Assembly: GCA_005776885.1 (NCBI GenBank)
Contig: SXOD01000052.1
Coordinates: forward strand, 1-64,000
Reading direction: 5' to 3'
Source: Planctomycetia bacterium
GTDB lineage: Bacteria > Planctomycetota > Phycisphaerae > Phycisphaerales > SM1A02
Length of the DNA stretch: 64,000 nt
Position numbers and translations under genes: made by a program. The notes beneath the pieces were generated by a model. It was not told the origin of the DNA. It saw only the letters and a list, made by a program, of their open reading frames with translations, and made no database searches. The stretch's first letter is position 1, and each line of letters begins with the position of its first letter. This document shows positions 5,703 to 38,062 of the stretch, in pieces.

Positions 5703-5775
5703 CGAAGGGGCGGAGGCTACCCCGTTGGGCGCGCGCGATTGGGGGGGCGGAGTTGGCCAGGTTGGGCGCGCGCGA

Positions 5776-5825
5776 TTGGATTGATCGGAATCGACCAAAA
5801 AAACGTCGAATCCGATCAGCCCAAC
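5776..5825. repeat. Palindromic element Pal-1 (A-loop orientation)
   Basis: Imperfect palindrome of about 50 bp between the divergent trpC and CPBP genes. The arms TTGATCGGAATCGACC and GTCGAATCCGATCA enclose AAAAAAAC. It is flanked by TTGG and CCAA, which also pair. The minus strand is open through the element, reading LIGFDVFLVDSDQSN. Member of a family shared with copies at 22039, 25584, 28689, 28889, 33985 and 36021. Confidence 0.9.
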
Positions 5826-5870
5826 CGCGGCGCCGGGCGTGGCGGTGCAGACACAGTTAGAGTTCGCGCC

Positions 5871-9024: not shown

Positions 9025-9127
9025 GGCGGTCACCGTATGGGCAAAAAGGGGCGTTCCGCGCGAGCAAGCGGAAAGGAAGGGTGCGTGGGTGTTGGCGTCG
9101 ACTCGGTGCCCGTGCAGGAGTCGAACC

Positions 9128-9168
9128 CAGGCCAAAAAGCGCCTCTCAGAGGCCGGATTTGGCCTGGG
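9128..9168. repeat. Palindrome copy B upstream of the DUF559 gene
   Basis: 41-bp hairpin with arms CCCAGGCCAAA/TTTGGCCTGGG and inner GCCTCT/AGAGGC. It is about 100 bp before the nuclease start and in inverted orientation to copy A (7924-7964). Confidence 0.8.
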
Positions 9169-9180
9169 ATGGGGCCGGCT

Positions 9181-21814: not shown

Positions 21815-21828
21815 ACGAGCCGAATGGC

Positions 21829-21956
21829 AGCGAACAAGGCGATGGAGCCGACCGGCTTGAACGTCACTGCTCACGCCGAGCGTGAGTGCGCCGGTGACAC
21901 GGGTGCGCTATTGGCCATCCCCGCGCTCAAGCTCAGCGATCGAGGCTTGTTCAGCG
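21829..21956. repeat. attC-like recombination site 2
   Basis: Begins AGCGAACAAGGCGATGGAG, which is nearly the canonical left end of attC sites, and ends TTGTTCAGCGG, the inverted counterpart (GAACAAG/CTTGTTC). An internal hairpin (CTCACGC/GCGTGAG) fills the middle. It begins 15 nt after the cassette ORF. Length about 128 bp, within the attC range. Region 21957-22038 has nothing recognisable. Confidence 0.5.
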
Positions 21957-22038
21957 GCGAAGCGTTTCAGTTCCTCGAGCCGGTGGCGGGTTGATGCGTT
22001 CGCCTGGCCAACGGTGAGATCTACCGCGTGCCCCCTCG

Positions 22039-22087
22039 GTGAATTGATCAGATTCGACCATTTTCTGGTCGATTTCGATCAATTCAC
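22039..22087. repeat. Palindromic element Pal-2 (symmetric variant)
   Basis: GTGAATTGATC ... GATCAATTCAC arms with three mismatches around a TTTTC loop (GACCATTTTCTGGTC). It lies 14 bp downstream of the sdhB stop. The homopolymer loop of the other copies is replaced by a symmetrical centre. Confidence 0.85.
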
Positions 22088-22101
22088 GGCGGGGCCGCCC
22101 C

Positions 22102-22884
22102 CTACTTCGGCCTGAAGATCCGCAGCAGCCGCGTGATCGGGTCGTAGAACTCGTCCACGACGCGCTCCTTCAACGGAATGATCGCGTTGTCGGTGATCGT
22201 GATCGATTCCGGGCAGACCTTGGTGCAGCACTTGCCGATGTTGCAGTAGCCGATGCCGTCGCGCTCCTTGAGGTCCGCGATGCGGTCGGCGGTGTCAAGC
22301 GGGTGCATCTCCAGCGCAGCGGTGTAGACCAGGAAGCGCGGGCCGATGAACTCGTCGTGCTTGTGGTGGTCGCGCAAGACATGGCAGACATCCTGGCAGA
22401 GGAAGCACTCGATGCACTTGCGGAACTCCTGGACGCGCTCGACATCCTCCTGGAAGACGGTCCAGGTGCCGTCCGGGCGGTCGGGCTCGCGAGGCTTGAA
22501 GGGGACGATCTTCTTCTTGACCTCGTAGTTCCAGCTCACGTCCGTGACCAAGTCGCGGATCGACGGGAACGCGCGCAGCGGCTCCACGGTCACGGGCTGG
22601 TCGGCGGGCAGCGTGTCCATGCGCGTCATGCACATGAGCGACGGCTTGCCGTTGATTTCGGCGGAACACGATCCGCACTTGCCGGCCTTGCAGTTCCATC
22701 GACACGCCAGGTCGGGAGCCTGCTCGGCCTGCACCTGGTGGATGCAGTCCAGCACGACCATGCCGCCGGTGACTTGCGCGGTGTATTGCTCAAAGGCGCC
22801 GCCCTTGGCGTCGCCACGCCAGATCTTGAACTCCACGGGGCGAGTGGCGGTCGCATCAGTGACGGGATGGGAGTGCGAGGACAT
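22102..22884 (-). CDS. sdhB: Succinate dehydrogenase / fumarate reductase iron-sulfur subunit
   Basis: 260 residues. [2Fe-2S] ligands in ACRWNCKAGKCGSC and LMC; CIECFLCQDVCHV and CNIGKCCTKVCPES supply the [4Fe-4S] and [3Fe-4S] ligands. The protein passes electrons from the flavoprotein to quinone through the membrane anchor. CIECFLCQDVCHVLRDH resembles actinobacterial Sdh1-type B subunits. It starts 2 bp after the sdhA stop and is the last gene of the operon; palindrome Pal-2 follows. Confidence 0.94.
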   Translation of the reverse strand: MSSHSHPVTDATATRPVEFKIWRGDAKGGAFEQYTAQVTGGMVVLDCIHQVQAEQAPDLACRWNCKAGKCGSCSAEINGKPSLMCMTRMDTLPADQPVTVEPLRAFPSIRDLVTDVSWNYEVKKKIVPFKPREPDRPDGTWTVFQEDVERVQEFRKCIECFLCQDVCHVLRDHHKHDEFIGPRFLVYTAALEMHPLDTADRIADLKERDGIGYCNIGKCCTKVCPESITITDNAIIPLKERVVDEFYDPITRLLRIFRPK

Positions 22885-22886
22885 GG

Positions 22887-24704
22887 CTACTTCATCCTCT
22901 CGATGATGGCCTGAAGGTCGGGACGGATGGGTGCCCGTTGGCGGCGGTCGATGTCCATCGAGCCATCATCGGCACGCCTGGCCACCAAGTTGAACCCGGT
23001 GCACTCCTCGCTCTTGGCGGGGAAGTCCTCGCGGAAGTGGCCGCCTCGGCTCTCGGGCCGCAGGAGCGCGGACTTGGTGATCATCTCGCTCACATGGAGC
23101 AGGTTCCGAAGGTCGATCGCCGTGTGCCAGCCGGGGTGGTATTCGCGGTGACCCGACACGCCGCATTTCGCGGCACGAGCTCGCAGCGAATCCAGGTGGC
23201 CAAGCGCCTCCTCCAGCTCCGACTTGGTCCGCACCATGCCGACCAGGCGTTGCATCACATCCTGCAAGTCGCTCTGGATCGCGTAGGGGTTCTCGCCGTT
23301 GGGACGATCGAAGGGCGCCAGCGCGCGAGCCGTCTCCGCTTCCACCTGCGCACTGTCCACGGGAGCCGCACCGTGTTCCTTGGCCCAGCGCGCGGCGTGC
23401 TCGCCGGCGCGCTTGCCGAAGACCACCAGGTCCGAGAGGGAGTTGCCGCCCAGTCGATTGGCACCGTGCAAGCCAGCCGCCACCTCGCCCGCGGCGAAGA
23501 GGCCGGGCACGGAAGACATCTGCGTGTCGCCATCGACGCGGACGCCGCCCATGCAGTAGTGGGTGGTCGGGCCGACCTCCATCGCTTCCTTCGTGATGTC
23601 CACGCCGGCCAGCTGCATGAACTGGTGGTACATCGATGGGAGCTTCTTCTTGATGTGCTCCTCGCCGTTGGGCACTCGCGACTTGATCCACGCGATGTCC
23701 AGGAAGACGCCTCCGTGCGGCGAGCCGCGTCCAGCCTTCACCTCGCGGTTGATGCAGCGGGCGACATGGTCGCGAGTCAGCAGTTCGGCGGGGCGCTGCG
23801 CGCTCTTGTCGCCACAGACATACCGCCACGCCTCTTCCTCGTCGAGGGCAACCTGATTCTTGTAGGCCTCGGGGATGTCGTCCCACATGAAGCGACGACC
23901 CTCGCTGTTGCGCAGGGCACCACCCTCGCCACGAACGCCTTCGGTCACCAGGAGTCCGCGCACGCTGGGCGGCCAGACCATCCCGGTGGGATGGAACTGG
24001 ATGAACTCCATGTCCATGATCTCGGCGCCGGCCTCGTAGGCCAGCGCCTGGCCGTCGCCGGTGTATTCCCAGGAGTTGCTGGTGATTCGATACGCCTTGC
24101 CGATGCCGCCGGTCGCCAAGATGACCGCACCGGCGCGCCAGACGCGAAGGCGCCCGCGCTCGCGGTCGTAGCCAAGCACGCCAGCGATGCGACCGCCCGA
24201 CGTGAGCAGCGCCACGACCGTCATCTCCATGTAGACATCAAGTCCCTGGTGGACGCCGTGGTCTTGCAGCGTGCGGATCATCTCCAGGCCGGTGCGGTCG
24301 CCCACATGGGCCAGGCGCTGGTACCGGTGGCCACCGAAGTGCCGCTGGAGGATTCGACCATCCTTGGTGCGGTCAAACACCGCGCCCCAGGCTTCCAGTT
24401 CCCGCACCCGGTCTGGGGCTTCCTTGGCGTGATGTTCCGCCATCACCCAGTTGTTGAGGTAGCCGCCGCCGCGCATCGTGTCCGAGAAGTGCACTTCCCA
24501 GTTGTCTCGGTCGTCGACATGGCCCATCGCGGCCGCCATGCCGCCTTCGGCCATGACCGTGTGGGCCTTGCCGAGGAGCGACTTGCAGATGACGGCCACC
24601 TTGGCGCCGCCCGCAGAAGCCTCGATGGCCGCGCGCAGGCCCGCGCCGCCGGCGCCGATCACAATGACATCGTGTTCGTGGACAATCGCTTCGGGCACAC
24701 TCAT
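22887..24704 (-). CDS. sdhA: Succinate dehydrogenase / fumarate reductase flavoprotein subunit
   Basis: About 605 residues from MSVPEAIVHEHDVIVIGAGGAGLRA, the FAD Rossmann motif. KAHTVMAEGGMAAAMG provides the histidine that covalently holds FAD. PTTHYCMGGVRVDGD and LFAAGEVAAGLHGANRLGGNSL are conserved in SdhA/FrdA. GGAGG sits 8-10 nt before ATG 24704, and that ATG overlaps the anchor-subunit stop (ATGA), so this start is preferred to the ATG five codons upstream. Catalyses succinate-fumarate interconversion on the cytoplasmic face. Confidence 0.96.
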   Translation of the reverse strand: MSVPEAIVHEHDVIVIGAGGAGLRAAIEASAGGAKVAVICKSLLGKAHTVMAEGGMAAAMGHVDDRDNWEVHFSDTMRGGGYLNNWVMAEHHAKEAPDRVRELEAWGAVFDRTKDGRILQRHFGGHRYQRLAHVGDRTGLEMIRTLQDHGVHQGLDVYMEMTVVALLTSGGRIAGVLGYDRERGRLRVWRAGAVILATGGIGKAYRITSNSWEYTGDGQALAYEAGAEIMDMEFIQFHPTGMVWPPSVRGLLVTEGVRGEGGALRNSEGRRFMWDDIPEAYKNQVALDEEEAWRYVCGDKSAQRPAELLTRDHVARCINREVKAGRGSPHGGVFLDIAWIKSRVPNGEEHIKKKLPSMYHQFMQLAGVDITKEAMEVGPTTHYCMGGVRVDGDTQMSSVPGLFAAGEVAAGLHGANRLGGNSLSDLVVFGKRAGEHAARWAKEHGAAPVDSAQVEAETARALAPFDRPNGENPYAIQSDLQDVMQRLVGMVRTKSELEEALGHLDSLRARAAKCGVSGHREYHPGWHTAIDLRNLLHVSEMITKSALLRPESRGGHFREDFPAKSEECTGFNLVARRADDGSMDIDRRQRAPIRPDLQAIIERMK

Positions 24705-25552
24705 CCGACAATCCTCCAATCGGTCCAGATCCCCATGGAGCAGAGGCGGACATAGACATCACTGAAACCAACCCAGAACAGGCTCATCCACGCGAACAGC
24801 ATGTGACGCTGGTTGAGCCACGAGACGCGCTTCCACGCGGCGTGCTGGTGCTTGTGGCACGAGAAGCAATCCTGCCGGCCGCCGATCAGGTGACGCCAGC
24901 AGTGGCAGCCAAAGGTGTATGAACCGAGGAGCACCACATTCATCGTCAGCACCAATGAGCCGACGCTGATGCCGAAGTGCTTGGCGCCTTCGGCATCGAT
25001 CGACCAGAGCGACACCCACGCGTCGTATCCCAGGATCCCGATGAAGAGGATGGCGATGTAGAGCGCGTAGCGATGGGCGTTCTGGAGGATCAGCGGGAGC
25101 TTCTGCTCGCCGCGATACTTCGTCCCTCGGAAGCCCGGTTCACCGACGCCGCAGTTGCTGGGATCTCCCCAGAATGCCTTGTAGTAGGCGCCTCGGTAGT
25201 AGTAGCAAGTGAATCGGAAGAGGCCCGGGAACGGGAGGATGAAGAGGGCCGGGGAGAAGAGGAGATACGACGGCCACCACGCGGGCTGCTGCCCAAACCA
25301 GGCGTGGCCCGAGTGCAGCCCCGCCGCGTCCCACAGCACCGGGGAGTAGAACGGCGAGAGCAGCTGCTGGGCCCCTGGGTGCGTCGGACCGCCGGTGAAG
25401 TAGTTGTTCCCCTGGAGGGCGGCCCAGGTGGAGTAGACGATGAAAGCGCCAAAGCCGAGGAAGACGAGCGTGGGCTGTATCCACCAGCGGTCGATGCGGC
25501 GCGTTTCAAGGAAGCCGGGTGCTTGCGGCAGGGGCAGTGGTGCGCGTGTCAC
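24701..25552 (-). CDS. Succinate dehydrogenase membrane-anchor subunit (single large type)
   Basis: 283 residues and about five membrane helices (e.g. IQPTLVFLGFGAFIVYSTWAA, LLFSPALFILPFPGLFRFTC, YALYIAILFIGILGYDAWV, SVGSLVLTMNVVLLGSYTFG). It has conserved CYYYRGAYYKAFWGDPSNC, YRGEQKLPLILQNAHRYAL, GCHCWRHLIGG and a CFSCHKH motif. There is no separate sdhC/sdhD pair. Gene order anchor-A-B and the motifs recall Mycobacterium Sdh1 (Rv0249c-Rv0247c). Haem and quinone ligands cannot be assigned from sequence alone. Confidence 0.78.
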   Translation of the reverse strand: MTRAPLPLPQAPGFLETRRIDRWWIQPTLVFLGFGAFIVYSTWAALQGNNYFTGGPTHPGAQQLLSPFYSPVLWDAAGLHSGHAWFGQQPAWWPSYLLFSPALFILPFPGLFRFTCYYYRGAYYKAFWGDPSNCGVGEPGFRGTKYRGEQKLPLILQNAHRYALYIAILFIGILGYDAWVSLWSIDAEGAKHFGISVGSLVLTMNVVLLGSYTFGCHCWRHLIGGRQDCFSCHKHQHAAWKRVSWLNQRHMLFAWMSLFWVGFSDVYVRLCSMGIWTDWRIVG

Positions 25553-25583
25553 GGGGCGGGCAGGTTACAGCAATGGGTTCCCC

Positions 25584-25635
25584 GGTTGGAATGATGAGAA
25601 TCGACAGGAAAACGGTAGTTTCCCATCCGCCCAAC
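25584..25635. repeat. Decayed palindromic element Pal-3
   Basis: The left half GGTTGGAATGATGAGAATCGAC matches the family consensus at about 19 of 22 positions and the right end is CCGCCCAAC. The centre and right arm (AGGAAAACGGTAGTTTCCC) have diverged. It lies in the 97-bp gap between the sdh operon start and the upstream dockerin-like gene. Confidence 0.55.
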
Positions 25636-25649
25636 GGCCGCGGCTACGG

Positions 25650-26858
25650 CTACGGCCCGACGCCGTCGCAACTGCCCCACGAGGTGAGCAAGAGCGTGAG
25701 GTCCTGGCCGTTCACCTCGCCGTCGCCGTTGAGGTCGGCGGCGCAGGTGTCGCCGCTCGGGACGACCGTTGCCACGTAGGACATCGACCCGGAGCCACCG
25801 GATGGCACGAAGATGCCCATGACCGTCGTGCCGATGACCGTGTTGGCCGACGTGAGTTCGGCTCCGGGGTACGCGATGTCAGCCCACGCGGCCTCGCCAA
25901 GCGTCCCGTTTGGCAGGCGCGGCAGGTGGACCAGCGATGCCCCCAAGCCACCGTCCACGCTCACCCAGTCCGCGGCGAAGTTGTAGCCGCCGGACTCGTT
26001 GCCATTGATTCCCTCAAAGTGCGTGACGACGCTGGCGGCCGGCTGGTTGTGCGCGCTGAAGCTGCGAAAGTCGCTGGCGGTGTGCGTCACTCGATTCCAC
26101 CGGCAGATGAAGGCCTGGCTCAGCTCGGTCGGCTTGAAGGTGTGGTAGCCGCCGGCGATGGTGTAGTGCTCGGCATCGTCCTGCCAGATGCCGTAGATGG
26201 TGGTCCCGTCGGCGCCGGGATAGGAGAGGTCCCACGACTGGTGCGTCTCGATGTCGTAGACGAACGCGAAGCCGGTGGCAAGCCCCTTGATGTCGTAGTT
26301 GCCGATCGCCAGCTGCCCCATCGTGCTGTGCATGAAGCAATTGTTGTAGTTGGGGTGCGGCGGGGTGATCGTGGTCCACACGCCCCCGACGCCTGTGTCG
26401 GGCCCGCTGTAAAGGCACCCGATGTTGCGGCTGCCGGTGGACGATGCTTGGTAGATGCCGACCAGGCGAACGAGGTCGCCGGGGCCATCGGCGGGGCCAT
26501 AGATGGAGGTCGCCGTGACATCGGTCACACCCGCGCCAGCAAACACAAGTTCCGTCCACACGCCGTCGGCGCCGCCACCCGAGAGCGGGCCCTTGTAGAG
26601 GAAGGCGCTCGATGGAGCCGCAGCGTCACCGAGCGCACCACAGATGTACACGCTGGAGGAGCCCGCGATCCCGCGCACCCCTTGGATCGTCGCCGCCTCG
26701 CCGCACGGGCAGGCGAAGGTGCTGTAGGTGGTGTCGGCGGAGGCGGTTCGCGTGGGGGCGAAGACCGCGAGCGCACAGGCGACCGCGGGCACGGCGATCA
26801 GCAACGCTCGGCACGCCGGAATCCTGCGGCGGTGCGGTAGGTGGGAGTGTTTCAGCAT
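25650..26858 (-). CDS. Secreted protein with C-terminal dockerin-like domain
   Basis: About 402 residues from MLKHSHLPHRRR. A signal peptide (ALLIAVPAVACALAVFAPTRTASA) is followed by repeated segments of a beta-propeller-like layout (GVWTELVFAGAGVTD, GGVWTTITPPHPN, YGIWQDDAEHYTIAGGYH). The end CAADLNGDGEVNGQDLTLLLTSWG is one dockerin-like Ca-binding repeat typical of Phycisphaerae surface proteins. No catalytic motif. The long in-frame extension to 27470 is antisense to the chemoreceptor gene. Confidence 0.82.
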   Translation of the reverse strand: MLKHSHLPHRRRIPACRALLIAVPAVACALAVFAPTRTASADTTYSTFACPCGEAATIQGVRGIAGSSSVYICGALGDAAAPSSAFLYKGPLSGGGADGVWTELVFAGAGVTDVTATSIYGPADGPGDLVRLVGIYQASSTGSRNIGCLYSGPDTGVGGVWTTITPPHPNYNNCFMHSTMGQLAIGNYDIKGLATGFAFVYDIETHQSWDLSYPGADGTTIYGIWQDDAEHYTIAGGYHTFKPTELSQAFICRWNRVTHTASDFRSFSAHNQPAASVVTHFEGINGNESGGYNFAADWVSVDGGLGASLVHLPRLPNGTLGEAAWADIAYPGAELTSANTVIGTTVMGIFVPSGGSGSMSYVATVVPSGDTCAADLNGDGEVNGQDLTLLLTSWGSCDGVGP

Positions 26859-26969
26859 GATGGTCCAAGAAACTGTGCCATGAAATCCGCTCGATGCCAG
26901 TAATCCGGCCGAGAGTCGGCACGCAACGGCTGGTCGCAGCGCCCCGACCGCCCCTACGATGCCGCCCCC

Positions 26970-28625
26970 ATGACCTTTCGCCAGAAATTTGCTGCGCTTG
27001 GAATCCTCCTGATCGCCGGATTTGCGCTTGTCACATGGAAAACCCGTTCGATCATGGACGATGTAATGGTCAATGGGCCGCTCTATCACCAGGTGGTGCA
27101 GGGGCAGGACATCGTTGCGGACATTCTTCCGCCACCCAAGTTCATCGTGGAGGCGCACCTGCTGGCGTACCGGATCATCGATCGTCCACCGGGACCAGAC
27201 CGCGACCAACTCCTGGAGCGCTTCGAGGAGTGTCGGTCCGAGTTTGAAGATCGGCAGGTGCACTGGGCGAGGGAACTGGAGGGTGGACGCAATGGCACCG
27301 AGCGCGCCGAACCGAAATTGGTGGAGCAGCTGCTCCACACGTCCTACGAGCCGGCGGAGGAGTACTTCCAACTGGCTCAGGCGCGTTTCATTCCTGCGGT
27401 GGCCGCGGAAAATCCAAATGTCGCGCGCTCCGTGTTGGTGAAGGAAATGGAGCCGCTGTTCATCGCCCACCGCGAGGCGATCCAGCAGACTGTCGCTGCC
27501 GCGCGGTCGCTCATCGCTGAGAAGGAAGCCATGGCTGGCGCCGAAGTCGAGTCGGGCAGGGTGTGGTCGCTGGGCCTCGGGCTGGGAGTGCTGGGCGTGC
27601 TTGCCCTGGTCGCGTACCTGGCATTCAGGTCAGTGCTTCGTGCGATGGAACAGGTGACGCTGCGGATGAAGTCGATGGCCGAGGGCGAGGCTGACTTGAC
27701 CGCTCGGTTGGGGCTCAAGAGCAACGACGAAGTCGGTCGGCTCGCCCATCAGGTCGACGCGTTCGTCGCCAAGATCGGCGGCCTCGTGAAGAACGCGGCC
27801 GGGAGCACGGCGGCGCTGCGGGAGACCTGCCAGACGGTGGCGGAGACCAGCCGTTCACAGGAGTCCACGGTGCAGCAGTTTGGCGCATCCACGGCGCAGG
27901 TGGCCGCGGCCGTGCGCGAGATCAGCGCAACGCAGACGGAGCTGGTGTCGGCGATGGGCGATGTCCAGCGCGCGGCGCACGAGTCCGCGCAGACCGCCGT
28001 CGCCGGGCGGGATGGGCTGGGAGAGATGCGAGGCGCCATGCAGTCGCTGGCGGGGAGCAGTGCCTCGATCTCGGAGCGCCTCACCACGATCAACGATCGC
28101 ACGCAGGACATCTCCAGCATCGTCGTCGCCATCACGAAGGTGGCTGACCAAACCAACCTCTTGAGCGTGAACGCCGCGATCGAGGCCGAGAAGGCCGGCG
28201 ATGCGGGTCGAGGCTTCCTGGTGGTCGCACGCGAGATCCGTCGACTCGCAGACCAGACCGCGCAGGCCACGCTGGACATCGAACGCATGGTGGCGGCCAT
28301 GCAGGGAGCCGTGACGGCGGGCGTCATGGAGATGGACAAGTTCACTGCCGAAGTGCACCGACGCGTGGAGCAGATGGAGTCGATCAGCGCTGGGCTTGGC
28401 GGCGTGATCGACGGCGTCGCGGAAATGAAGGAGCGATTCACCACCGTCGGCGAGGGGATGAACAGCCAGGCCGTGGGCGCGCAGCAGATCAGCGACGCGA
28501 TGGCCAGCCTGAGCGGCAATGTCCGCACGACGGTCACCAGCTTGAGCGAGTTCACCGGCGCCGCGGAGCGGATGCGCGGGGCGGTGGCGACGCTGGACGC
28601 CGAGCTGGCGAAGTTCAGGGTGTAG
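26970..28625 (+). CDS. Methyl-accepting chemotaxis protein (WspA-like signalling tip)
   Basis: 551 residues. TM1 (about 8-24), a periplasmic helical sensor region of about 170 residues, TM2 (WSLGLGLGVLGVLALVAYLAF, about 200-220), HAMP (RSVLRAMEQVTLRMKSMAEGEADLTARL), then the signalling hairpin with tip ITKVADQTNLLSVNAAIEAEKAG and GRGFLVVAREIRRLADQT. The E-E-K tip variant is like WspA receptors. It would regulate CheA in chemotaxis or surface sensing; no che genes are in the window. The 3' end runs into a G-rich tandem repeat. Confidence 0.92.
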   Translation: MTFRQKFAALGILLIAGFALVTWKTRSIMDDVMVNGPLYHQVVQGQDIVADILPPPKFIVEAHLLAYRIIDRPPGPDRDQLLERFEECRSEFEDRQVHWARELEGGRNGTERAEPKLVEQLLHTSYEPAEEYFQLAQARFIPAVAAENPNVARSVLVKEMEPLFIAHREAIQQTVAAARSLIAEKEAMAGAEVESGRVWSLGLGLGVLGVLALVAYLAFRSVLRAMEQVTLRMKSMAEGEADLTARLGLKSNDEVGRLAHQVDAFVAKIGGLVKNAAGSTAALRETCQTVAETSRSQESTVQQFGASTAQVAAAVREISATQTELVSAMGDVQRAAHESAQTAVAGRDGLGEMRGAMQSLAGSSASISERLTTINDRTQDISSIVVAITKVADQTNLLSVNAAIEAEKAGDAGRGFLVVAREIRRLADQTAQATLDIERMVAAMQGAVTAGVMEMDKFTAEVHRRVEQMESISAGLGGVIDGVAEMKERFTTVGEGMNSQAVGAQQISDAMASLSGNVRTTVTSLSEFTGAAERMRGAVATLDAELAKFRV

Positions 28626-28669
28626 GGTGTGGGGCGTGGGGCGTAGGGCGTGGGGTGTAGGGCGTGGTC
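28610..28669. repeat. G-rich 7-14-bp tandem repeats over the chemoreceptor 3' end
   Basis: Units GGTGTAGGGTGTGGGGCG, GGCGTGGGGCGTAGG, GGCGTGGGGTGTAGG follow one another from the last codons of the receptor gene (stop TAG at 28623-28625) to 28669. They resemble degenerate duplicates of the stop region. Confidence 0.8.
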
Positions 28670-28688
28670 GCCCCGTCCGTCCCCCCCG

Positions 28689-28739
28689 GTTGGGCTGATC
28701 AGAATCGACGTTTTTTTGGTCGAATCTGATCAATTCAAC
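28689..28739. repeat. Palindromic element Pal-4 (T-loop orientation)
   Basis: GTTGGGCTGATCAGAATCGAC and GTCGAATCTGATCAATTCAAC enclose GTTTTTTTG. Intergenic, about 40 bp before the start of the dehydrogenase gene. Its plus strand reads GLIRIDVFLVESDQFN. Separated by 150 bp from Pal-5 in the same orientation. Confidence 0.92.
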
Positions 28740-28779
28740 GGGCTCCGGGATCAGGGTGAGAGTCCTACGCTTGTCAGCC

Positions 28780-31524
28780 ATGCCAACGGACGCTGCTCGT
28801 CGAGAACCCCTTCAATCGCTGGCGATCGGGGCTGTGGCGTTGTCAGTGCTCCTGGTGCCGTCCGCTGTGTGGCTGGTGGGTCATCGCCGTGAATTGATCG
28901 GAACGGACGGTTTTTTGGTCGATTCCGATCAATCCAACGGGATGGACCGCACTTCCCGTCCCCGCCCGCTCACGATTCCCCTCACCGGCGGCGACGCCTC
29001 GCGCGGGATCGCCGCGCCCGAGGGCTTCGTCGTGGAGCAGGTCTACGGTGTTCCGGCGGGGGACGACTCCCTCGTGTGCCTGGCATTCGATCCCCAGGGA
29101 CGCATCCTCACCGGCGCGCAATACGCGGGGATCGTGCGGATCGATCTGGGCCGCGGCGCGCCTGGGGCCGCGCCTGGGTCCCCGCCTCCAACCGAATCCC
29201 TTCCGCTGACTGACGGGACACCGTGCCCACTCCGAAGCGTGCAGGGCCTGGCCTTCACTGGCAACGACCTCTTCGCCGTGACCGGAGCAATGGCTGACCA
29301 ACCCGCGGGCCTCTGGAAACTGCGCGATCCTGAGGGCGACGGCGTGTTCTCCATGCCGGAGATCTGGTGCGAGTTCACCGGACAGATGGGCGAACACGGA
29401 CCGCACCAGATCGTGGTCGGTCCCGATGGCTGGATCTGGCTCGCGGCTGGGAACCACACGGACATGCCGGGACCGGCGGGTTCGCGCGTGCCGCTTGTCT
29501 TTGCCGAAGATCGACTTGGCAAGCGACTGTGGGATCCCAACGGCCACGCCGTCGGCCTCACCGCACCGGGTGGATGGATCATGCGTTTCGATCCCACGCG
29601 CGACGCACGCGAGTTGGTCGCGGTCGGCTTTCGCAACCCGGTCGATCTCGCGTTCGGCCCGCACGGCGAAGCATTCACCTACGACGCCGACATGGAGTGG
29701 GACATGGGCATGCCCTGGTATCGACCCACGCGAGTGAACCATGTCGTGAGCGGGGTCGATTTCGGCTGGCGCAGCGGCTCCTGGAAGTGGGGCGATTGGT
29801 ACCCCGATTCGCTTGGCAGCGTGGTGGACATCGGGCCCGGCTCACCGTGCGGCGTGCTGTGGAGCGATGACCTTCAGTTTCCCGAACCCTGGCGAAGCAG
29901 CCTCTTCCTCCTGGACTGGACCTTCGGCACGATGTATGCGTGCGCACTCACGCCCGACGGCGCAACATGGAACGCGGAGCCAACCGTCTTCCTCACGGGT
30001 TCGCCACTTCCATTGGTGGACGCGGTCGCGGGGCCGGATGGCGCGATGTATGTCGTGACGGGTGGGCGTCGATTGCCCAGTGCGATCGAGCGCTTGAGGT
30101 GGACGGGCGGTGAGGTGGGCGTCGCCGCCGCGCCCGCCGCCGAAACGGCTGAGGCGTCCCAGCGCAAACAGCTCGAATCGCTCCACAAGCCCGCAGAGGA
30201 CATGCCGGCATTGCTCGCCCAGCTTGAGCCAGCGCTCGCTTCCGAGGATCCAGCCATCCGCGGCGCCGCTCGCATCGCGCTGGAGCACCAAGCGGCGTCG
30301 CGTTGGGGTGCGTGGGCGTTGTCGCCTGATCGAGCCACCCCGCGCGCCACGATCCGGGCCTGCCTCGCACTCGCGCGGTGCGGAGAGTCGCAGGAGGTGG
30401 AGGCTGCGCGGGCGCGATTGCTATCGATGCCGCTCGCTGAGCTCCCGCGAGACGACCGCGCTGATGCCTTGCGTGCGATCGCGGTGACCTGTGCGCGAGT
30501 CACGCCAACGACGGAGTCCGCGCTCGTGATGCGGCGGGTGCTGGAGCCCTTGTTCCCCGCGCGCGACCCCGCGATCGACGGCGAACTGGTGGAACTCCTC
30601 GTCGCGGCGGAGAGTCGTGAGGTGGTGACTCGAGCACTGGACCTTGTGGGCACCCGCACGCCGGCCGTCGCATCGAATGACGCCGCGCAGGCCGCGCTCG
30701 TCGCGCGAAATGCGCAGTATGGCCGCGATGTGGAGAGAACCACTCGCACGCGCCCGCCCACGGAGGACATTCGCCTCATGGCCGCGATTCGACTGTCCCG
30801 CGTGGGATGGAACGGGCCGCTTCGCGATCGATACGCCGCGTGGTTCGCAGTGCACGCTGGCGCGCAGGGTGGCAACTCCTACGCTGGTTTCATCGAGCGC
30901 ATCAGGAAGGAGGCGGGCGAGTCGATTCCCATGACGGCCGCCGAGCGCGCGCAGTTTGAGCGGCTGTCGTCGCCCGCAGCGATCGAGGCATCTGGTTCCG
31001 TGCACCCGCCACAAGGTCCGGGACAGCAATGGACCACCGCGTCGCTCGCCGCGGCGATGCGTTCGAGCAGCGGCGCCGAGCCCAGCGCTGCGCAACTCAC
31101 CCGTGGCCGCGAACTCTTCGTCGCCGCGCTGTGCGCATCGTGCCATCGTGCAGGCGACGTCGGCGGTGCCTCCGGCGTGGGCGGGCCGGACCTCACCACG
31201 CTGGCCGGCCGATTCTCCATCGACGATCTCGCGCGCGCGATCTGCGAGCCCGCCGCGACGGTGAGTGACCAGTACCAATTTACGGAGGTCACGATGCGCG
31301 ACGGGTCGGTGATCGTCGGTCGCATCGTCGAGGAGTCTCCCGCGCGCGTGATCGTGATGGAGAGCTTGCTGGCACCGGACGCGGCCCGCGAAATCGATGC
31401 CTCGGACATCCAGTCGCGTCGCGTGTGGCCGGGGAGCCCCATGATGCCGGGCCTCCTGGACCGTTGCTCGCCCGACGAGGTGCGCGCCCTGGCTGCGTTT
31501 CTTGGATTGCGACCAGGCACCTGA
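28780..31524 (+). CDS. Secreted multidomain dehydrogenase: PQQ/GSDH-type propeller, HEAT-like region and cytochrome c
   Basis: About 914 residues from ATG 28780 (MPTDAARREPLQSLAIG). A signal/anchor helix (LAIGAVALSVLLVPSAVWLVG, about 13-33) is followed by an in-frame palindromic element (residues about 37-53, ELIGTDGFLVDSDQSN). The propeller-like part (EGFVVEQVYGVPAGDD, PHQIVVGPDGWIWLAAGNHTD, VAVGFRNPVDLAFGPHGEAFTYDADMEWDMG) resembles membrane-bound dehydrogenases of planctomycetes. A helical (HEAT-like) middle precedes a cytochrome c with CASCH (785-789) and a C-terminal MPGLLDRCSPDEVRALAAFL helix. Substrate unknown. GTG 28756 is a possible longer start. Confidence 0.78.
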   Translation: MPTDAARREPLQSLAIGAVALSVLLVPSAVWLVGHRRELIGTDGFLVDSDQSNGMDRTSRPRPLTIPLTGGDASRGIAAPEGFVVEQVYGVPAGDDSLVCLAFDPQGRILTGAQYAGIVRIDLGRGAPGAAPGSPPPTESLPLTDGTPCPLRSVQGLAFTGNDLFAVTGAMADQPAGLWKLRDPEGDGVFSMPEIWCEFTGQMGEHGPHQIVVGPDGWIWLAAGNHTDMPGPAGSRVPLVFAEDRLGKRLWDPNGHAVGLTAPGGWIMRFDPTRDARELVAVGFRNPVDLAFGPHGEAFTYDADMEWDMGMPWYRPTRVNHVVSGVDFGWRSGSWKWGDWYPDSLGSVVDIGPGSPCGVLWSDDLQFPEPWRSSLFLLDWTFGTMYACALTPDGATWNAEPTVFLTGSPLPLVDAVAGPDGAMYVVTGGRRLPSAIERLRWTGGEVGVAAAPAAETAEASQRKQLESLHKPAEDMPALLAQLEPALASEDPAIRGAARIALEHQAASRWGAWALSPDRATPRATIRACLALARCGESQEVEAARARLLSMPLAELPRDDRADALRAIAVTCARVTPTTESALVMRRVLEPLFPARDPAIDGELVELLVAAESREVVTRALDLVGTRTPAVASNDAAQAALVARNAQYGRDVERTTRTRPPTEDIRLMAAIRLSRVGWNGPLRDRYAAWFAVHAGAQGGNSYAGFIERIRKEAGESIPMTAAERAQFERLSSPAAIEASGSVHPPQGPGQQWTTASLAAAMRSSSGAEPSAAQLTRGRELFVAALCASCHRAGDVGGASGVGGPDLTTLAGRFSIDDLARAICEPAATVSDQYQFTEVTMRDGSVIVGRIVEESPARVIVMESLLAPDAAREIDASDIQSRRVWPGSPMMPGLLDRCSPDEVRALAAFLGLRPGT
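28889..28938. repeat. Palindromic element Pal-5, inside the dehydrogenase coding sequence
   Basis: GTGAATTGATCGGAACGGACG and GTCGATTCCGATCAATCCAAC enclose a GTTTTTTG loop. In frame with the host gene it encodes ELIGTDGFLVDSDQSN, just after the N-terminal membrane helix. About 50 bp long. Confidence 0.92.
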
Positions 31525-31637
31525 GGCGGTGGGATATTCGAGTTGTTCTCGAACAACCAACCGCACCAAGGCGCGATTGCCTCGAGAATCACGCCACTCG
31601 CATGGCGCGGCCCGAAAGGTGGGCTACGCTGTGGAGC

Positions 31638-33068
31638 ATGCCCAACACCGATCAACGCTCGGAGTGCGCCCGGGCTCGTGCCCGCTCCGGCTCCGATGCG
31701 TCCGCCTGCTCACGGGCCATGCTCTGCATCACTGCGTCAGGATCGCTTGGCGCCGCCACGCTCACCGTCCACGCCACGCCTCCGCGCTACCTGCTCCAGC
31801 CAGTTGTTGGCTCCGTCCATCCGTGCAGCTCGGGGCAGGCGCCTTGGCATGTGCACTTCCTCCTGGCCGACGGCCGCGTCGCGGGCGAGTCGTACTGTGG
31901 GCAGGTGGCGTATGGGTCTGAACCGTTCGTCTGGTACCCCGACGGCGCCGTCGTGGAGTACCTGCGCGGCGACTTTGACTTCACGCAGCCACTCGCACTG
32001 TTGCCTGATGGACGGATGATCATCGCGGGCGACTGGTGCCCGCCGGTGACGGGAACGTGCACTTCCGCCACGGCGATCGCATCACCAAACGCTGCACCCA
32101 TCGTCCTGAGTGCGGCATCGACCGCCATCCTCGCCTACGACCGCAGCGACTCCGGCTGGGCGGTTGGCTTCGGCGCCGCCGATGGCAGCAACGCGTGGCG
32201 CTCGACCCCCGCGGGCGTGGTGGAGTTCCTTGGCATCACCGAGGGGTGGGGCGAATCGGTCGAAGCGGTGAACGAGTCCGGTCAGGCCGTCGGCAACTCG
32301 TATGTCAACAACCAGTACCGCGGGCTCCGCTGGGAGGCCGACGGGTCGTACACGCTTCTCGCGCCCGCCGAGCTGGGCACGACCACGGCAGGCCTTGACG
32401 TGGCGATCGACGGCACGGTGGTGGGCGGTTCCAACGGCCGTGCCGCATGGTGGCCGAACAGTGCGCTGACGACCGCCGCGGTGCCGCTGCTCCCTATCGG
32501 CACCAACAGCTGGGCCACTCACATCGCCGGAAATCCGTCCAGTGCCGGCCCGCTTGGCTGGGAGATCTTCGGCACGCTGCAAAGCGGCACCAGGTTGTTC
32601 CACGCGACCTCCGGCCAGGCCACGCAGGAAATCCCGCTCCCCGCCGGTTCGTTCATCGGCGTCGAAGTGATCGACGCCCCGCGCGCCGACTTCATGCTCG
32701 CGCAGGCGCACACCGACATCTACACGCCGGTGCCGATGGTCTGGTCGCCCGACGACGGATTGCTTCGGTTTGAATCCCTCGTCGTGAACCCGGCCACCCT
32801 GCCGCCATTCAGCGGCTATCGGGCCATCGATGCCAATGCCGCGGGAAGCATTCTGCTCACCATCGGGTTCGATGGTCAGCCCTATGTTGCCAAGGTCTTG
32901 GCTCCGGGCGACGTCAACGGCGACGACTCCGTGAATGGGGTCGATCTTGGCGCGGTGCTGTCTCGGTGGGGGCAGTCAAGTGGCGGCATCCGCGCCGCGG
33001 AAGACTTCGACGGCGACAGCCTCATCGGTGCCAGCGATCTGGCGATCGTGCTCGCGAACTGGGGTTGA
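31638..33068 (+). CDS. Secreted protein with two C-terminal dockerin-like repeats
   Basis: About 476 residues from ATG 31638. An N-terminal hydrophobic stretch (AMLCITASGSLGAATLTVHA, about 27-46) may serve for export after a long basic leader. The body is rich in repeats resembling HAF/beta-propeller units (VNESGQAVGNSYVNN, YRGLRWEADGSYTLL, IDGTVVGGSNGRAAWW). The end has DVNGDDSVNGVDLGAVLSRWG and DFDGDSLIGASDLAIVLANWG, a two-repeat dockerin-like module. Function unknown; probably cell-surface or secreted. The preceding 113 bp has no obvious signals. Confidence 0.8.
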   Translation: MPNTDQRSECARARARSGSDASACSRAMLCITASGSLGAATLTVHATPPRYLLQPVVGSVHPCSSGQAPWHVHFLLADGRVAGESYCGQVAYGSEPFVWYPDGAVVEYLRGDFDFTQPLALLPDGRMIIAGDWCPPVTGTCTSATAIASPNAAPIVLSAASTAILAYDRSDSGWAVGFGAADGSNAWRSTPAGVVEFLGITEGWGESVEAVNESGQAVGNSYVNNQYRGLRWEADGSYTLLAPAELGTTTAGLDVAIDGTVVGGSNGRAAWWPNSALTTAAVPLLPIGTNSWATHIAGNPSSAGPLGWEIFGTLQSGTRLFHATSGQATQEIPLPAGSFIGVEVIDAPRADFMLAQAHTDIYTPVPMVWSPDDGLLRFESLVVNPATLPPFSGYRAIDANAAGSILLTIGFDGQPYVAKVLAPGDVNGDDSVNGVDLGAVLSRWGQSSGGIRAAEDFDGDSLIGASDLAIVLANWG

Positions 33069-33126
33069 GTTCGCTCGCGCCCAGTGGAGCCAAGCCGCCG
33101 CCCCCGTCGCCCCCGTGGCGGCCGTG

Positions 33127-33834
33127 TCAGCGCCGTCGACGGGAAGGCACGAGCCCACACAGCCCGAGCAACGCCATCCCAGCCGGCGCGGGGATCACCT
33201 GCACGAAAATGTCGCTCGTCACCACCCGGCCAGCGAACTCGCCGCTCGTCCACTGGATGCCGAGGGAAATCGTGTAGTTGCCAAGCGCGTTCGGGTCAAA
33301 GAGCTGCCCGAACTGGCTGTTCCAGTAGTCGAACCCCATGTTCTCAGAGCCAAGGTAGGGACCCGAAAGAGGCGCGCCGGGCACATAGTTGAACGGGATC
33401 TGGGCCGTCGTGCCAACGCTGGTGCCGTCGGCGGGATCGAAGTCCACCTGCATCACGATGAACGCGTTGCCAAGCCCGATGCCGCCGCCATACACGGCAA
33501 AGTCGAAGTTCCACCACGCGTACGGGCTCATCGTGGAGCTGCCCTGGCTGATGGCGCTGTAGCCGGGCTGCACGAAGTATGTGTTGCCGTCGAAGGAGAC
33601 ATTGTCCTGCCAGCGCTGGCGAGCCCTCAGTCCGATCGACACGCCGCTGAGAGCGTCGGTGGCGAGGAAGAAGTCGGTGTTGGAGATGCCCGACCCGACG
33701 CCAAACGGCATCCCCAGGGTGGCGCCGGCCTCGTAGGTGACGAACTCGTCGGCATGTGCTGTCGGCGAGGTGGTGAACGCGGCGCACATCGCGAGCGAAG
33801 CGCCGGTTGTGATGATGCGTGAGCAGGTGTTCAT
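33127..33834 (-). CDS. Secreted protein with PEP-CTERM-like sorting tail
   Basis: About 235 residues from ATG 33834. A signal peptide (MNTCSRIITTGASLAMCAAF...AHA) is followed by a beta-rich domain (MSPYAWWNFDFAVYGGG, IVMQVDFDPADGT, SGEFAGRVVTSDIFVQ). The C-terminus is VIPAPAGMALLGLCGLVPSRRRR: an (I/V)PAPA motif, a hydrophobic segment and basic residues, the PEP-CTERM pattern processed by exosortase. No exosortase gene is in the window. GAGG lies 9 nt before the ATG; ATG 33849 is an alternative start. Confidence 0.78.
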   Translation of the reverse strand: MNTCSRIITTGASLAMCAAFTTSPTAHADEFVTYEAGATLGMPFGVGSGISNTDFFLATDALSGVSIGLRARQRWQDNVSFDGNTYFVQPGYSAISQGSSTMSPYAWWNFDFAVYGGGIGLGNAFIVMQVDFDPADGTSVGTTAQIPFNYVPGAPLSGPYLGSENMGFDYWNSQFGQLFDPNALGNYTISLGIQWTSGEFAGRVVTSDIFVQVIPAPAGMALLGLCGLVPSRRRR

Positions 33835-33984
33835 GGAGAGATTCCTCATCCCCGCTCCCACCCTCTCTACAGAAAGTACTCCAAGCGGCGCGAAGAGCAA
33901 CGAGAGAGACACGAAGTTCATGCGATACTGCGTGGCCTCAGGTGCTCTCACTGCTTGGCATGTTTCCAGCAAGGGATCGAACGC

Positions 33985-34034
33985 GTTGGATTGATCAGAT
34001 TCGACCAAAAAAACGTCAAATCCGATCAATTCAC
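33985..34034. repeat. Palindromic element Pal-6 (A-loop orientation)
   Basis: GTTGGATTGATCAGATTCGACC and GTCAAATCCGATCAATTCAC enclose AAAAAAAC. Intergenic, between two minus-strand secreted-protein genes. The minus strand reads ELIGFDVFLVESDQSN. Confidence 0.92.
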
Positions 34035-34061
34035 GGGGCGAGGGCCCAGCCGCCCAGCCGC

Positions 34062-35888
34062 TCAGCCCCACGCCGCCAGCATCGCCGCGAGATCGCCGCC
34101 GCCGACGCTGCCGTCGCCGTCGATGTCGGCCGCCGAGCCCGAGAGGCCCCACTGGCTCAGCATCGAAGCCAAGTCCTGGCCGTCCACGATGCCGTCGCCG
34201 TTGAGATCAGCGGGATTGCCAGCGCCACCTTCCGGTCCGAGCACGGCCACGGAGACATTCGGCTCCGCACCTGGCTTGAACAGGCCAAGCGTGCCGGACG
34301 CCGTCGCGGGCGCCGCATTGGCATCAAACCAGAAGGTGTAGATGGTCGAGAAGCGCAGCGCGTTGCCGTTGGCGCTGGTGGCGTAGTTCCCGCCGGTCCA
34401 GGTCACGGCGCCGCCGCTGGTGGAGATCGTCCAGTCGGTGCCGGAGTACGGGTCGCCCGAGTGGTAGTTGATGTCGTGGAAGCCAGCGTTCGTCACGCTC
34501 ACGCCCGCCGGCACCGGCACGGAGAACGAGTTGCCGCTCCGGTCGCTGTTCAGATTCTGGATCGCGTAGTTGTAGCGCCAGGTTCCGTTGCCGTTGTCCG
34601 TGGCGTTGTAACCGACCAAGAACCGGCCGTCGCCAGCCACATCGACCGGCGTGATCGTCACGGACGGGACCGCTGCCTTCCACGCTTCGATGGCCGCCTC
34701 CTGCCGGTGCGTCGAGCCCGTCAGCGAGATCGAGTACGCGCCGCTGGTGAGCGTTCCCACCGAGCACGATCGCCACGACGCGTTGTTGTCGTCGTTGCCC
34801 GCCGCGGCATCGCCGGAGTGGATGTACTGCGCCTCGATCAGGTAAGTCGCGCCGGCGTTCATTGCGGGGTTCAGGTCATTCGCATTCACCTGCACGCGAC
34901 GCCCGATTGTGGCCGGAGCCGACGGCATTCCCTGGTTGTAGGTGCCTGGGAAAATGCCCGTCGCGGCATTGACCTCGGATCGAGTTCCCAAGCCGCTCTG
35001 ACTGCCGTTGAGGCCTGAGGAATAGGGGTCCGAACATCCGATTCCCAGCCAGGTGCCGCTGCTGGACGCCTGGCACGAGCCGCAGACCGTGCCCTGGAGC
35101 GCGGTGAATCCGTGCTTGCCCCAGCTCTGGCCGATGTGCTCGATGCGACCGTCCTTGATGCGGTGGATGTTCTGCGGGATGAATGGGTGGAGGTTGCTCG
35201 GCGAGGCGAACCAATCCAACAAGGCATCTCCGATGTTGCAGCTGGTCGTGCCGATCGCGTACGCCATGATGGTCTGGCCGCCGCTCGTGACGCTGCCGTA
35301 CTTGCTGATGTTGGGGAGGTCGCCCACGATGACATCGGGACCGTTGCCACCGCCGCCGCCACCGCCGCCGCTGCCCGCTTCGAGGGTCATCGTGCCGGAG
35401 CCGGAGGCAGCCTGCCAGCCTCCGATCCGGATGTAGTACTGGGTCCCGGCCGTGACGGGGAGCGAGGGGATGACGGACTCGTAGTTGCCCCCGCACGAAT
35501 CGTCGTCGCAGGCAATCAACGTCGAGCAGTTGCCCTCATAGACAACGAGGGAAGTGTCGTAGCTGCTGCCGCACAAGTTGATCGAGAGGTCCATGTCCTC
35601 GGACGCCGTCCACGTGAACCACACATCCTTGCTGTTGCCCCAGTCGAGGTACACGCAACTCCCATTCGAGGGCGGGCTGGCACTTGGCGTCATGGCGGTG
35701 GTGCTGAACGCGTTGGCGCCCATCACCGCGGTCAAAGCCGTGGCGCACTCGTCGCCAGCAGGCCCACCGGCGGTGCCGCCATCATCGGGCCGAGCGAATG
35801 CGGTCGGAGCGATTGAACTGGAGAGCTGTCCGACGAAGAGGGCGGTGGCGCCGATGGTGAGAACGCTGATGGCAGTGGTGGTCTTCAT
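34062..35888 (-). CDS. Secreted protein with pre-peptidase-like, unknown central and dockerin-like domains
   Basis: About 608 residues from MKTTTAISVLTIGATALFVG, a signal peptide. The N-terminal part (VWFTWTASEDMDLSINLCGSS, DTSLVVYEGNCSTL, VTAGTQYYIRIGGW) resembles pre-peptidase or Ig-like domains. A poly-Gly linker (eight Gly, about residues 171-180) leads to a conserved-looking domain (NIGDALLDWFASPSNLHPFIPQN, IEHIGQSWGKHGFTALQGTVCG, GLGTRSEVNAATGIFPG). A further domain precedes two dockerin-like repeats (DLNGDGIVDGQDLASMLSQWG, DIDGDGSVGGGDLAAMLAAWG). Function unknown; the domain architecture indicates an extracellular protein. Confidence 0.8.
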   Translation of the reverse strand: MKTTTAISVLTIGATALFVGQLSSSIAPTAFARPDDGGTAGGPAGDECATALTAVMGANAFSTTAMTPSASPPSNGSCVYLDWGNSKDVWFTWTASEDMDLSINLCGSSYDTSLVVYEGNCSTLIACDDDSCGGNYESVIPSLPVTAGTQYYIRIGGWQAASGSGTMTLEAGSGGGGGGGGNGPDVIVGDLPNISKYGSVTSGGQTIMAYAIGTTSCNIGDALLDWFASPSNLHPFIPQNIHRIKDGRIEHIGQSWGKHGFTALQGTVCGSCQASSSGTWLGIGCSDPYSSGLNGSQSGLGTRSEVNAATGIFPGTYNQGMPSAPATIGRRVQVNANDLNPAMNAGATYLIEAQYIHSGDAAAGNDDNNASWRSCSVGTLTSGAYSISLTGSTHRQEAAIEAWKAAVPSVTITPVDVAGDGRFLVGYNATDNGNGTWRYNYAIQNLNSDRSGNSFSVPVPAGVSVTNAGFHDINYHSGDPYSGTDWTISTSGGAVTWTGGNYATSANGNALRFSTIYTFWFDANAAPATASGTLGLFKPGAEPNVSVAVLGPEGGAGNPADLNGDGIVDGQDLASMLSQWGLSGSAADIDGDGSVGGGDLAAMLAAWG

Positions 35889-36020
35889 GGCTGATAACAA
35901 TGAGGGGACTCAGTGGCCCGCCTGGGCTTGATGGCTCCAACTTATCCCGCATTCCGCCGTGATGCCACCGCCGCCGTGAATTTTCCTCAAGTTGACACTG
36001 ATCGCGGGGACTCTCCCCCA

Positions 36021-36069
36021 GTGGGCTGATCAGAATCGACCAAAAAAACGTCGATTCCGATCAGTTCAC
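36021..36069. repeat. Palindromic element Pal-7, overlapping the end of the dehydratase gene
   Basis: GTGGGCTGATCAGAATCGACC and GTCGATTCCGATCAGTTCAC enclose AAAAAAAC. The right arm supplies the final codons (GTG AAC) and TGA stop of the gene at 36061-37968 on the minus strand. The minus strand reads ELIGIDVFLVDSDQ through the element. Confidence 0.92.
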
Positions 36070-37968
36070 GGGGGTGACCGCACCCTCGCGTCGGTACTCC
36101 GTCACCGTTTCCCGGATCACGCGACGCACTTCCAGGCGGTCCTGCCGCTCCACGGCTGCTTCGAGCCGGTCCAGGGATCGACGAAGCGCGTCCCACCCCA
36201 ACGAAGCCTCCTGCACCCGGAAGATGCCATCGTGAGTGGTTCGAACCACGTCGTTGCCGATGGCGATCTCCTCGAAGAGCTTTTCACCAGGCCGGAGCCC
36301 CGTGAACTGGATTTCGATGTCGCCGTCGGGTCGATCCGCGGAGCGGACGGCGCGCCCGCTGAGCTCGATCATCCGGCGCGCCAAGTCCACGATCTTCACG
36401 GGTTCTCCCATGTCCAGCACGTAGACCTCGCCACCCTGGCCCAGTGCGCCAGCCTGCATCACGAGCTCGGCGGCCTCAGGGATCGTCATGAAGTATCGAG
36501 TCATCTCCTCGTGGGTCACCGTCACCGGCCCGCCCGCCGCGATCTGCTTCTCGAAGAGCGGAATCACGCTGCCGCTCGAGCCGAGCACGTTTCCAAACCG
36601 GACCATCACGAACCGGGTGTGCTGCGCGGCGCCGCGAACGCCGCCGGCCACGGCCTGCTCGTGCATGGCCTGCAGGACAAGTTCGGCCATCCGCTTCGTG
36701 GCGCCCATGATGCTCGTGGGGCGAACGGCCTTGTCCGTGCTGACGAAGATGAGTCGCTCGACGCCCGTGGCCTGGGCCGCCTCGGCGACGCGCATGGTCC
36801 CCAGGACGTTGGTGGCCGCGCCCTCGCACTCGTTGTCCTCGACGATCGGGACGTGCTTGTACGCCGCGGCGTGGAAGACCGTGGAGACGTTGTTCGCCTC
36901 CATCAACTGGCGGACCTTGACGCCGTCCAGCACGGAGCCGAGCGACGGAACGATCTCGAACCCCTGACCGCCGGTCGATGTCTTGCGAGCGCGAAGCTGC
37001 TCCAGTTCCAAGGTCACCTGGTAGAGGTTGAATTCACTCTGTTCCAGCACGATGAGCCGGTGTGGGTTCCACCGGAGGATCTGCCGGCAGAGCTCGCTCC
37101 CGATGCTGCCCCCCGCGCCCGTCACGAGCACGTTCTTGCCAGCGATGGCGATCTCCAGCAGCTCTCGGTCAGGCGCCACGGGGGCGCGGCCGAGGAGTTC
37201 GCCGATGCCGACCGCGCGAATGGCGTAGAGACCGGTCTGGCTGGACTGGATCTCGTCCAGCATCGGCACCGTGAGCACGCGCACGCTCAGGTGACCGAGG
37301 CGACGCAAGACCGTCCGGCGCTGCGTGACGTTGGCGGATGGCAGGGCGATCAAGACCGTGGCCACCTGCAGTCGGCGCACGATTTCCGGCAGCTCGTGCG
37401 GGGGATGCACGGCGGCTCCGTCGATGCGCCGTCCCCACTTGGTGGCGTCATCATCTATGAAGGCCACGACGCGGAATCGAGGGTCCGCGGCCAGCATCTC
37501 TCCGGCCACGCCGGCCCCATAGATCAGGGTGCATTCACGGGCGGGTGCCATGAATCGTCGAATGAGAGAACGTGCGGCAAATCTGGTCGACGCAGCCGCC
37601 ATCGACAAGTTGATCCCGAACCCGACGATGGCCATCCTGCTCACGCCGCCATCGACGGCGCCGCGATCGAAGGTGATCCACGCTGCCGCCGCCATCGTCG
37701 CAAGCGCGCTCCCGGCGAGCGAGCGCCACCAGATCTCGATGCCGGATCGACGCAGCATCAGGCTGTAGAGGCCCACGACCCAGAAACTCACGGGAACGAT
37801 CAGGAGCGAGGCCCAGAGGAGCCCTCGATAGTCCTCGATGATCGGCGTCACGCTGCCCAAGCGCAGGAAGCCAGCGACGAGCAGCGCCAGTGCGGCGCAC
37901 GTCATGTCGATGGCGATCGCCAGCAGGATGCGAAGCGGGGATCGAAGGAGTGTGTGGAAGGCCCCCAT
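36061..37968 (-). CDS. Nucleotide-sugar 4,6-dehydratase, FlaA1/PglF/WbpM-type membrane protein
   Basis: 635 residues. Four N-terminal membrane helices (about 10-120) precede a first Rossmann-like domain (LIYGAGVAGEMLA, ADPRFRVVAFIDDD) and a second, catalytic SDR domain with VLVTGAGGSIGSELCRQI. Catalytic STDKAVRPTSIMGATKR follows. LRPGEKLFEE is conserved near the end. The family converts UDP-GlcNAc to a 4-keto-6-deoxy sugar for polysaccharide or glycoprotein biosynthesis. The last codons and stop lie inside palindrome Pal-7. Confidence 0.92.
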   Translation of the reverse strand: MGAFHTLLRSPLRILLAIAIDMTCAALALLVAGFLRLGSVTPIIEDYRGLLWASLLIVPVSFWVVGLYSLMLRRSGIEIWWRSLAGSALATMAAAAWITFDRGAVDGGVSRMAIVGFGINLSMAAASTRFAARSLIRRFMAPARECTLIYGAGVAGEMLAADPRFRVVAFIDDDATKWGRRIDGAAVHPPHELPEIVRRLQVATVLIALPSANVTQRRTVLRRLGHLSVRVLTVPMLDEIQSSQTGLYAIRAVGIGELLGRAPVAPDRELLEIAIAGKNVLVTGAGGSIGSELCRQILRWNPHRLIVLEQSEFNLYQVTLELEQLRARKTSTGGQGFEIVPSLGSVLDGVKVRQLMEANNVSTVFHAAAYKHVPIVEDNECEGAATNVLGTMRVAEAAQATGVERLIFVSTDKAVRPTSIMGATKRMAELVLQAMHEQAVAGGVRGAAQHTRFVMVRFGNVLGSSGSVIPLFEKQIAAGGPVTVTHEEMTRYFMTIPEAAELVMQAGALGQGGEVYVLDMGEPVKIVDLARRMIELSGRAVRSADRPDGDIEIQFTGLRPGEKLFEEIAIGNDVVRTTHDGIFRVQEASLGWDALRRSLDRLEAAVERQDRLEVRRVIRETVTEYRREGAVTPVN

Positions 37969-38062
37969 GTCTGCGTCAGCATCCTACCGCGACGTCAGCG
38001 TGAGACGATGGCAACAGGCAACATCAACATGACCGCACAAACCTACTGATAATCTCCCTCAC

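Follow-up and report, generated by a model that had tools for sequence, protein, structure and literature searches.

REPs (repetitive extragenic palindromes, of the GTAG- and CGTC-tagged kinds) also occur inside genes, and in several bacteria in frame; often they supply stop codons, and they prefer positions near 3′ ends between convergent or unidirectional genes (PMC3733652). They are present in Planctomycetes, and many intragenic REPs are found in Opitutus terrae, a verrucomicrobial relative within the PVC group; the main text of that study names, as far as we found, no planctomycete that has a copy within a gene (PMC3733652). Rickettsia palindromic elements (RPEs) are about 150 bp long, and nearly half of them lie in ORFs (PMC10969869).

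How does the locus examined here compare with these systems? It lies in a window of 64 kb from the 2.49-Mb assembly of an uncultured planctomycete (G000), where a 57-bp imperfect palindrome, Pal-5, falls in the reading frame of a dehydrogenase gene. Like REPs, the family to which Pal-5 belongs consists of short palindromes in tens of copies, placed at gene 3′ ends, supplying stop codons and, in a minority of cases, lying in frame within ORFs. It differs from REPs of the GTAG/CGTC kind in lacking a consistent foot tag (the number of copies with such a tag within 8 nt of a foot varies with tag and strand, from 1 to only 5 of 30), in its longer stem of about 21 pairs and in its 9-nt A/T-rich loop. 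A RAYT-mobilised REP was rejected, since the Y1 transposase (PF01797) has no match in this assembly or in those of two congeners, G005 and G048. With RPEs the family shares a palindrome read in frame in unrelated genes (on bioinformatic evidence only) and one stop-free frame common to the copies (30 of 30); judged by the RPE descriptions, it is set apart by its length of 57 against about 150 bp and by the presence of two of 23 copies in genes against nearly half.

MITEs, too, are small inverted-repeat elements that encode no protein and whose copies are specific to a lineage, but here we detected no excess of target-site duplications at any offset and, in a search that covered Y1, identified no parent transposon. 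The empty sites, in intergenic DNA at a Ks of about 1, are too diverged for exact insertion boundaries. Integron attC sites are also imperfect palindromes with GTTRRRY and RYYYAAC-like boxes, are found at gene 3′ ends and occur in pairs flanking accessory genes. The present family, however, is conserved in sequence throughout and its copies are scattered, with no arrays; an attC identity was rejected because, in copies having such boxes, their order (GTTRRRY...RYYYAAC) is the reverse of that in attC (RYYYAAC 5′, GTTRRRY 3′). Paired DNA uptake sequences were rejected too, since every exact half-site in the G000 assembly falls within palindromic copies.

On comparative sequence evidence, the in-frame element appears to be a well-supported new example of an already known kind of event. 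The original prediction had likened it to the Rickettsia elements and knew of no such report in planctomycetes. The likeness holds for a palindrome in frame within genes, whereas the intergenic position of 21 of 23 copies, mostly at gene 3′ ends, is REP behaviour. The novelty was overstated: intragenic REPs, REPs that supply stop codons and REPs in Planctomycetes and the PVC group are all described in PMC3733652. The present case would be one in which protein sequence in Planctomycetota was domesticated from a REP-like palindrome; it is comparatively well tested, in that it draws on coding selection between species and not just on annotation.

The repeat family and its copy in the dehydrogenase gene

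BLAST and a covariance model located 23 distinct copies in the G000 assembly and seven in the congeneric sister species G005 (Caspian MAG casp40-mb.123); none was found in G048. The three assemblies are 85% (G000), 96% (G005) and 88% (G048) complete, the first two being metagenome assemblies. Among 121 genomes of the bacterial family and 392 of the phylum there was no convincing copy beyond the two congeneric genomes, only three single marginal matches (E = 4e-4 to 8e-4). An exact match was not found in viral contigs, and a degenerate exact pattern, which was too strict, found nothing in the congeners. This is a genus-restricted repeat family, newly described here. Its copies are clustered: the window, 2.6% of the assembly, holds seven of the 23.

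The consensus, CCCGTTGGrYTGATCrGAWTCGACgTTTTTTTgGTCGAWTCyGATCArYyCAACGGG, includes a short internal mismatch in its stem, and in a second subtype GATG pairs with CATC instead of GATC with GATC. Stem covariation across all copies is weak against column shuffles, and our argument is therefore not rested upon it. The frame read in the dehydrogenase is free of stops in all 30 copies of the two species, as had been suggested from the intergenic copies, but frame 1 of the opposite strand is also open in 27 of the 30, while the two alternative frames of the same strand usually meet a stop (TGA). An open frame is thus what conservation of the palindrome entails, and it gives no evidence of selection on the peptide.

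Is Pal-5 truly a member of this family? A nucleotide HMM trained on the 21 intergenic G000 copies, from which Pal-5 was thus held out, found it at E = 1.4e-15; the best match of the same HMM in ten shuffles of the test sequences had E = 0.84, so that the match is far above chance. Pal-5 encodes RRELIGTDGFLVDSDQSNG, and if it is translated, peptides such as ELIGTDGFLVDSDQSNGMDR are expected. The position first proposed for it, 28889–28938 (residues about 37–53), was right, the full repeat being slightly longer (table 1); so too were the unbroken frame, the location after the N-terminal hydrophobic helix and ahead of the propeller, and the sister copy upstream in identical orientation, Pal-4, which lies 143 bp away. 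At the site corresponding to Pal-4 in the sister species we detected no element.

The dehydrogenase starts at ATG 28780. TIGR02604 matches part of its propeller region, and TIGR02603 and cytochrome c (PF00034) match its C-terminus, the two NCBIfam matches scoring under the curated cut-offs. In an AlphaFold2 model, pLDDT is below 50 over residues 1–64, and the first propeller strands appear at about residue 70; since the input alignment was shallow over the N-terminal region, the low values are to be read as 'no conserved fold', not as proven disorder.

We consider it likely that a genus-specific REP-like copy settled ancestrally in the linker between signal anchor and propeller, where it has been kept in frame, translated and tolerated. 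The sequences show that, of a family of 57-bp imperfect palindromes normally settling at gene 3′ ends, one copy came to occupy the linker that joins signal anchor and propeller in an exported dehydrogenase of the common ancestor of the two species. The frame has been kept in both lineages, and coding selection acts on the flanking parts of the gene. Translation and tolerance are suggested by the insertion of 19 whole codons, by the stop-free frame in that orientation and by the site, a flexible tether instead of a folded domain. Most likely the in-gene copy has no specific role and is a tolerated extension of the tether.

Table 1. Features of the window discussed in the text, with positions, strand and remarks.
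Feature	Position	Strand	Remarks
Intergenic copy	5772..5828	-	5′ of a trpC-like gene (divergent spacer)
Intergenic copy	22035..22091	+	11 nt away from the 3′ end of a gene
Diverged intergenic copy, GATG..CATC type	25582..25638	-	12 nt away from the 3′ end of a gene
Pal-4, intergenic copy	28686..28742	+	61 nt beyond the stop codon of the MCP gene upstream
914-aa membrane-anchored PVC-type dehydrogenase carrying Pal-5	28780..31524	+	beta-propeller, HEAT-like region, C-terminal CxxCH heme-binding domain
N-terminal hydrophobic helix/signal anchor 5′ of Pal-5	28780..28884	+	purifying selection, Ka 0.27, Ks 1.48
Pal-5, in-frame palindromic element	28885..28941	+	57 bp = 19 codons, residues 36–54; E 4.8e-17
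Alternative ATG directly 3′ of Pal-5	28942..28944	+	unlikely as the main start
Intergenic copy	33982..34038	-	24 nt away from the 3′ end of a gene; right edge of a 2.5-kb segment that the sister species lacks
Copy holding the stop codon of gene 36061–37968	36017..36073	-	the sister species has an element at the orthologous site

Placement of the copies and their possible roles

Gene calls around the copies came from our own simple codon-bias gene caller. By these calls, two of the 23 G000 copies and one of the seven G005 copies lie in genes; most of a bacterial genome being coding, in-gene copies are strongly depleted. The copy at 5772..5828 was rejected as intragenic, since the coding part of the overlapping ORF starts after it. 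The second in-gene copy, diverged, in opposite orientation and in frame, follows the catalytic (methyltransferase) domain of a CheR-type methyltransferase gene, where the sister CheR linker has unrelated sequence of similar length and so does not offer a clean presence/absence case. For 17 of the 21 intergenic copies the nearest boundary is a gene 3′ end; among random intergenic positions at these loci the share is 42% (p = 3e-4). Convergent genes enclose several of the copies, and the TGA within seven of the G000 copies is the stop codon of neighbouring genes, eight in total. Five of the seven G005 copies occupy sites orthologous to G000 copies, convergent junctions included, despite a Ks of about 1, which suggests that some selection keeps them there.

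What might the intergenic copies do? Once transcribed, the hairpin could serve as a 3′-end element in one or both directions, by termination or by protection of the mRNA end. This function, which position suggests, is less certain, and the canonical tail of a terminator, a T tract 3′ of the hairpin stem, is absent. In a consensus scan of 17 kb of the window (21500–38500) we found one intrinsic-terminator-like site, against 7.6 in shuffled sequence, hinting that the genome uses other means of termination. The family marks gene 3′ ends within a stretch where canonical terminators are scarce.

Might Pal-5 itself have been retained for a role as nucleic acid, for example as an internal hairpin modulating transcription or translation, the peptide being a by-product? 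Pal-5 and the copy in the sister ortholog both fold better than shuffled sequences (z = -3.0 and -3.1), and two stem pairs are altered on both sides. Yet at seven of the 21 pairs of the stem, one species or the other has bases that do not pair, and such a role would not require the preservation of frame seen in both. We think it unlikely.

In three cases a pair of elements flanks genes absent from G005: a 5.4-kb efflux operon (L104 1471–6909, G000:C60; the G005 junction has one element), a 2.3-kb segment (L108 2837–5224, G000:C3; the G005 junction has a decayed element) and a 1.1-kb gene (L112 3000–4233, G000:C21). In the window, a 2.5-kb segment of two genes (31493–34059) is absent from G005, and an element lies at its right edge (table 1). 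Short tandem duplications adjoin several copies (window 5698–5781; L107 3026–3050; L112 2930–3000; L106, right of 3066), and their repeat units include the element's own GTTGG/CCAAC arm, as if by slippage or hairpin repair.

The palindromes might be sites of recombination or insertion bounding exchangeable gene segments, with the in-gene copy a stray product. We give this reading only a small chance; were it true, the homogenisation of copies within the genome would reflect the same recombination. The family may mark the edges of accessory segments.

Age of the insertion

How old is the insertion? The nearest ortholog of the dehydrogenase, in G005, is 77–80% identical and holds a diverged element at the same place, in the same orientation and frame, encoding GTTGGGCAGATGGCAAACGACGGTTTGTCGGTCGATTCTCATCTTTCCAACG. 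This element matches other G000 copies independently (E = 9.6e-11) and is found by the held-out HMM at E = 3.7e-10. Synonymous divergence between the two species is near saturation (Ks about 1). The presence of the element at the same site and in frame in the ortholog indicates, on a comparison of two sequences with one element-bearing ortholog, that the insertion in the dehydrogenase predates the split of G000 and G005. It is thus not a fresh insertion, and it has persisted across a deep split of species.

Beyond the genus, nothing comparable to this N-terminus is present in the orthologs, which align only from about residue 59–82. One of them, in L006, has the layout of helix and linker seen here, with a linker about 12 residues shorter and without the element.

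The identity of Pal-5 to the copy in the ortholog is 68%, below its mean of 75% to the other G000 copies; orthologous copies are not more alike than paralogous copies within G000, which makes it probable that copies have been homogenised or replaced. The in-gene copy may have been converted or replaced repeatedly. Could the two species then have acquired an element at this site separately, or could the copy of one lineage have been overwritten by gene conversion? The identities point that way, as do three orthologous pairs that share the same two-sided difference between the species, GATC/GATC in one and GATG/CATC in the other. Separate insertion is improbable, since position (within a few codons), orientation and frame all agree although no more than two of the 23 copies in the genome lie in genes. 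Conversion of an ancestral copy may have occurred, but we hold the alternative as a whole to be unlikely.

Probable translation through the element

Where does the ribosome start? We compared codons 1–36 of the dehydrogenase, upstream of the element, with those of the sister ortholog (pS 0.65, pN 0.23, Fisher p = 2e-4; Ka and Ks in table 1). The differences number 9, 7 and 21 at codon positions 1, 2 and 3, and the gaps around Pal-5 in the codon alignment are all multiples of three. The stretch encoded by the element changes faster than the codons upstream (pN 0.32 against 0.23), as is expected of a linker. Coding selection acts on the gene both 5′ and 3′ of Pal-5. Were the start at 28942, codons 1–36 would be untranslated; the purifying selection upon them argues, from the pattern of substitution, that the ribosome starts upstream and reads through Pal-5 in frame.

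A true start 3′ of the element, which would make the palindrome an untranslated 5′ regulatory hairpin, had been put forward as a check. Both species do have a start codon directly 3′ of the element (ATG 28942 here, GTG at the matching position in the sister species), and PMC3733652 cautions that, of the intragenic REPs at N-termini, many in fact lie outside genes. We nevertheless regard it as very unlikely: codons 1–36 change mainly at third positions, the indels come in multiples of three, and the segment encodes a conserved hydrophobic helix that is required for the export of a CxxCH heme-binding protein. Two outcomes had been named as telling against the original prediction, translation that begins after the element and an unrelated sequence of the same length in all orthologs. 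We found neither, the upstream codons being under selection and the sister ortholog holding the element itself.

That the element is a Rickettsia palindromic element, or was acquired from those elements, is scarcely credible: it too lies in frame within unrelated genes, but its family is restricted to one genus, is 57 bp long and sits mostly in intergenic DNA at gene 3′ ends, against the length and ORF content reported for RPEs (PMC10969869).

The window also contains a second, unrelated palindromic family (CCCAGGCCAAA...TTTGGCCTGGG), whose two copies, at 7917–7968 and 9121–9172, are 85–90% alike.
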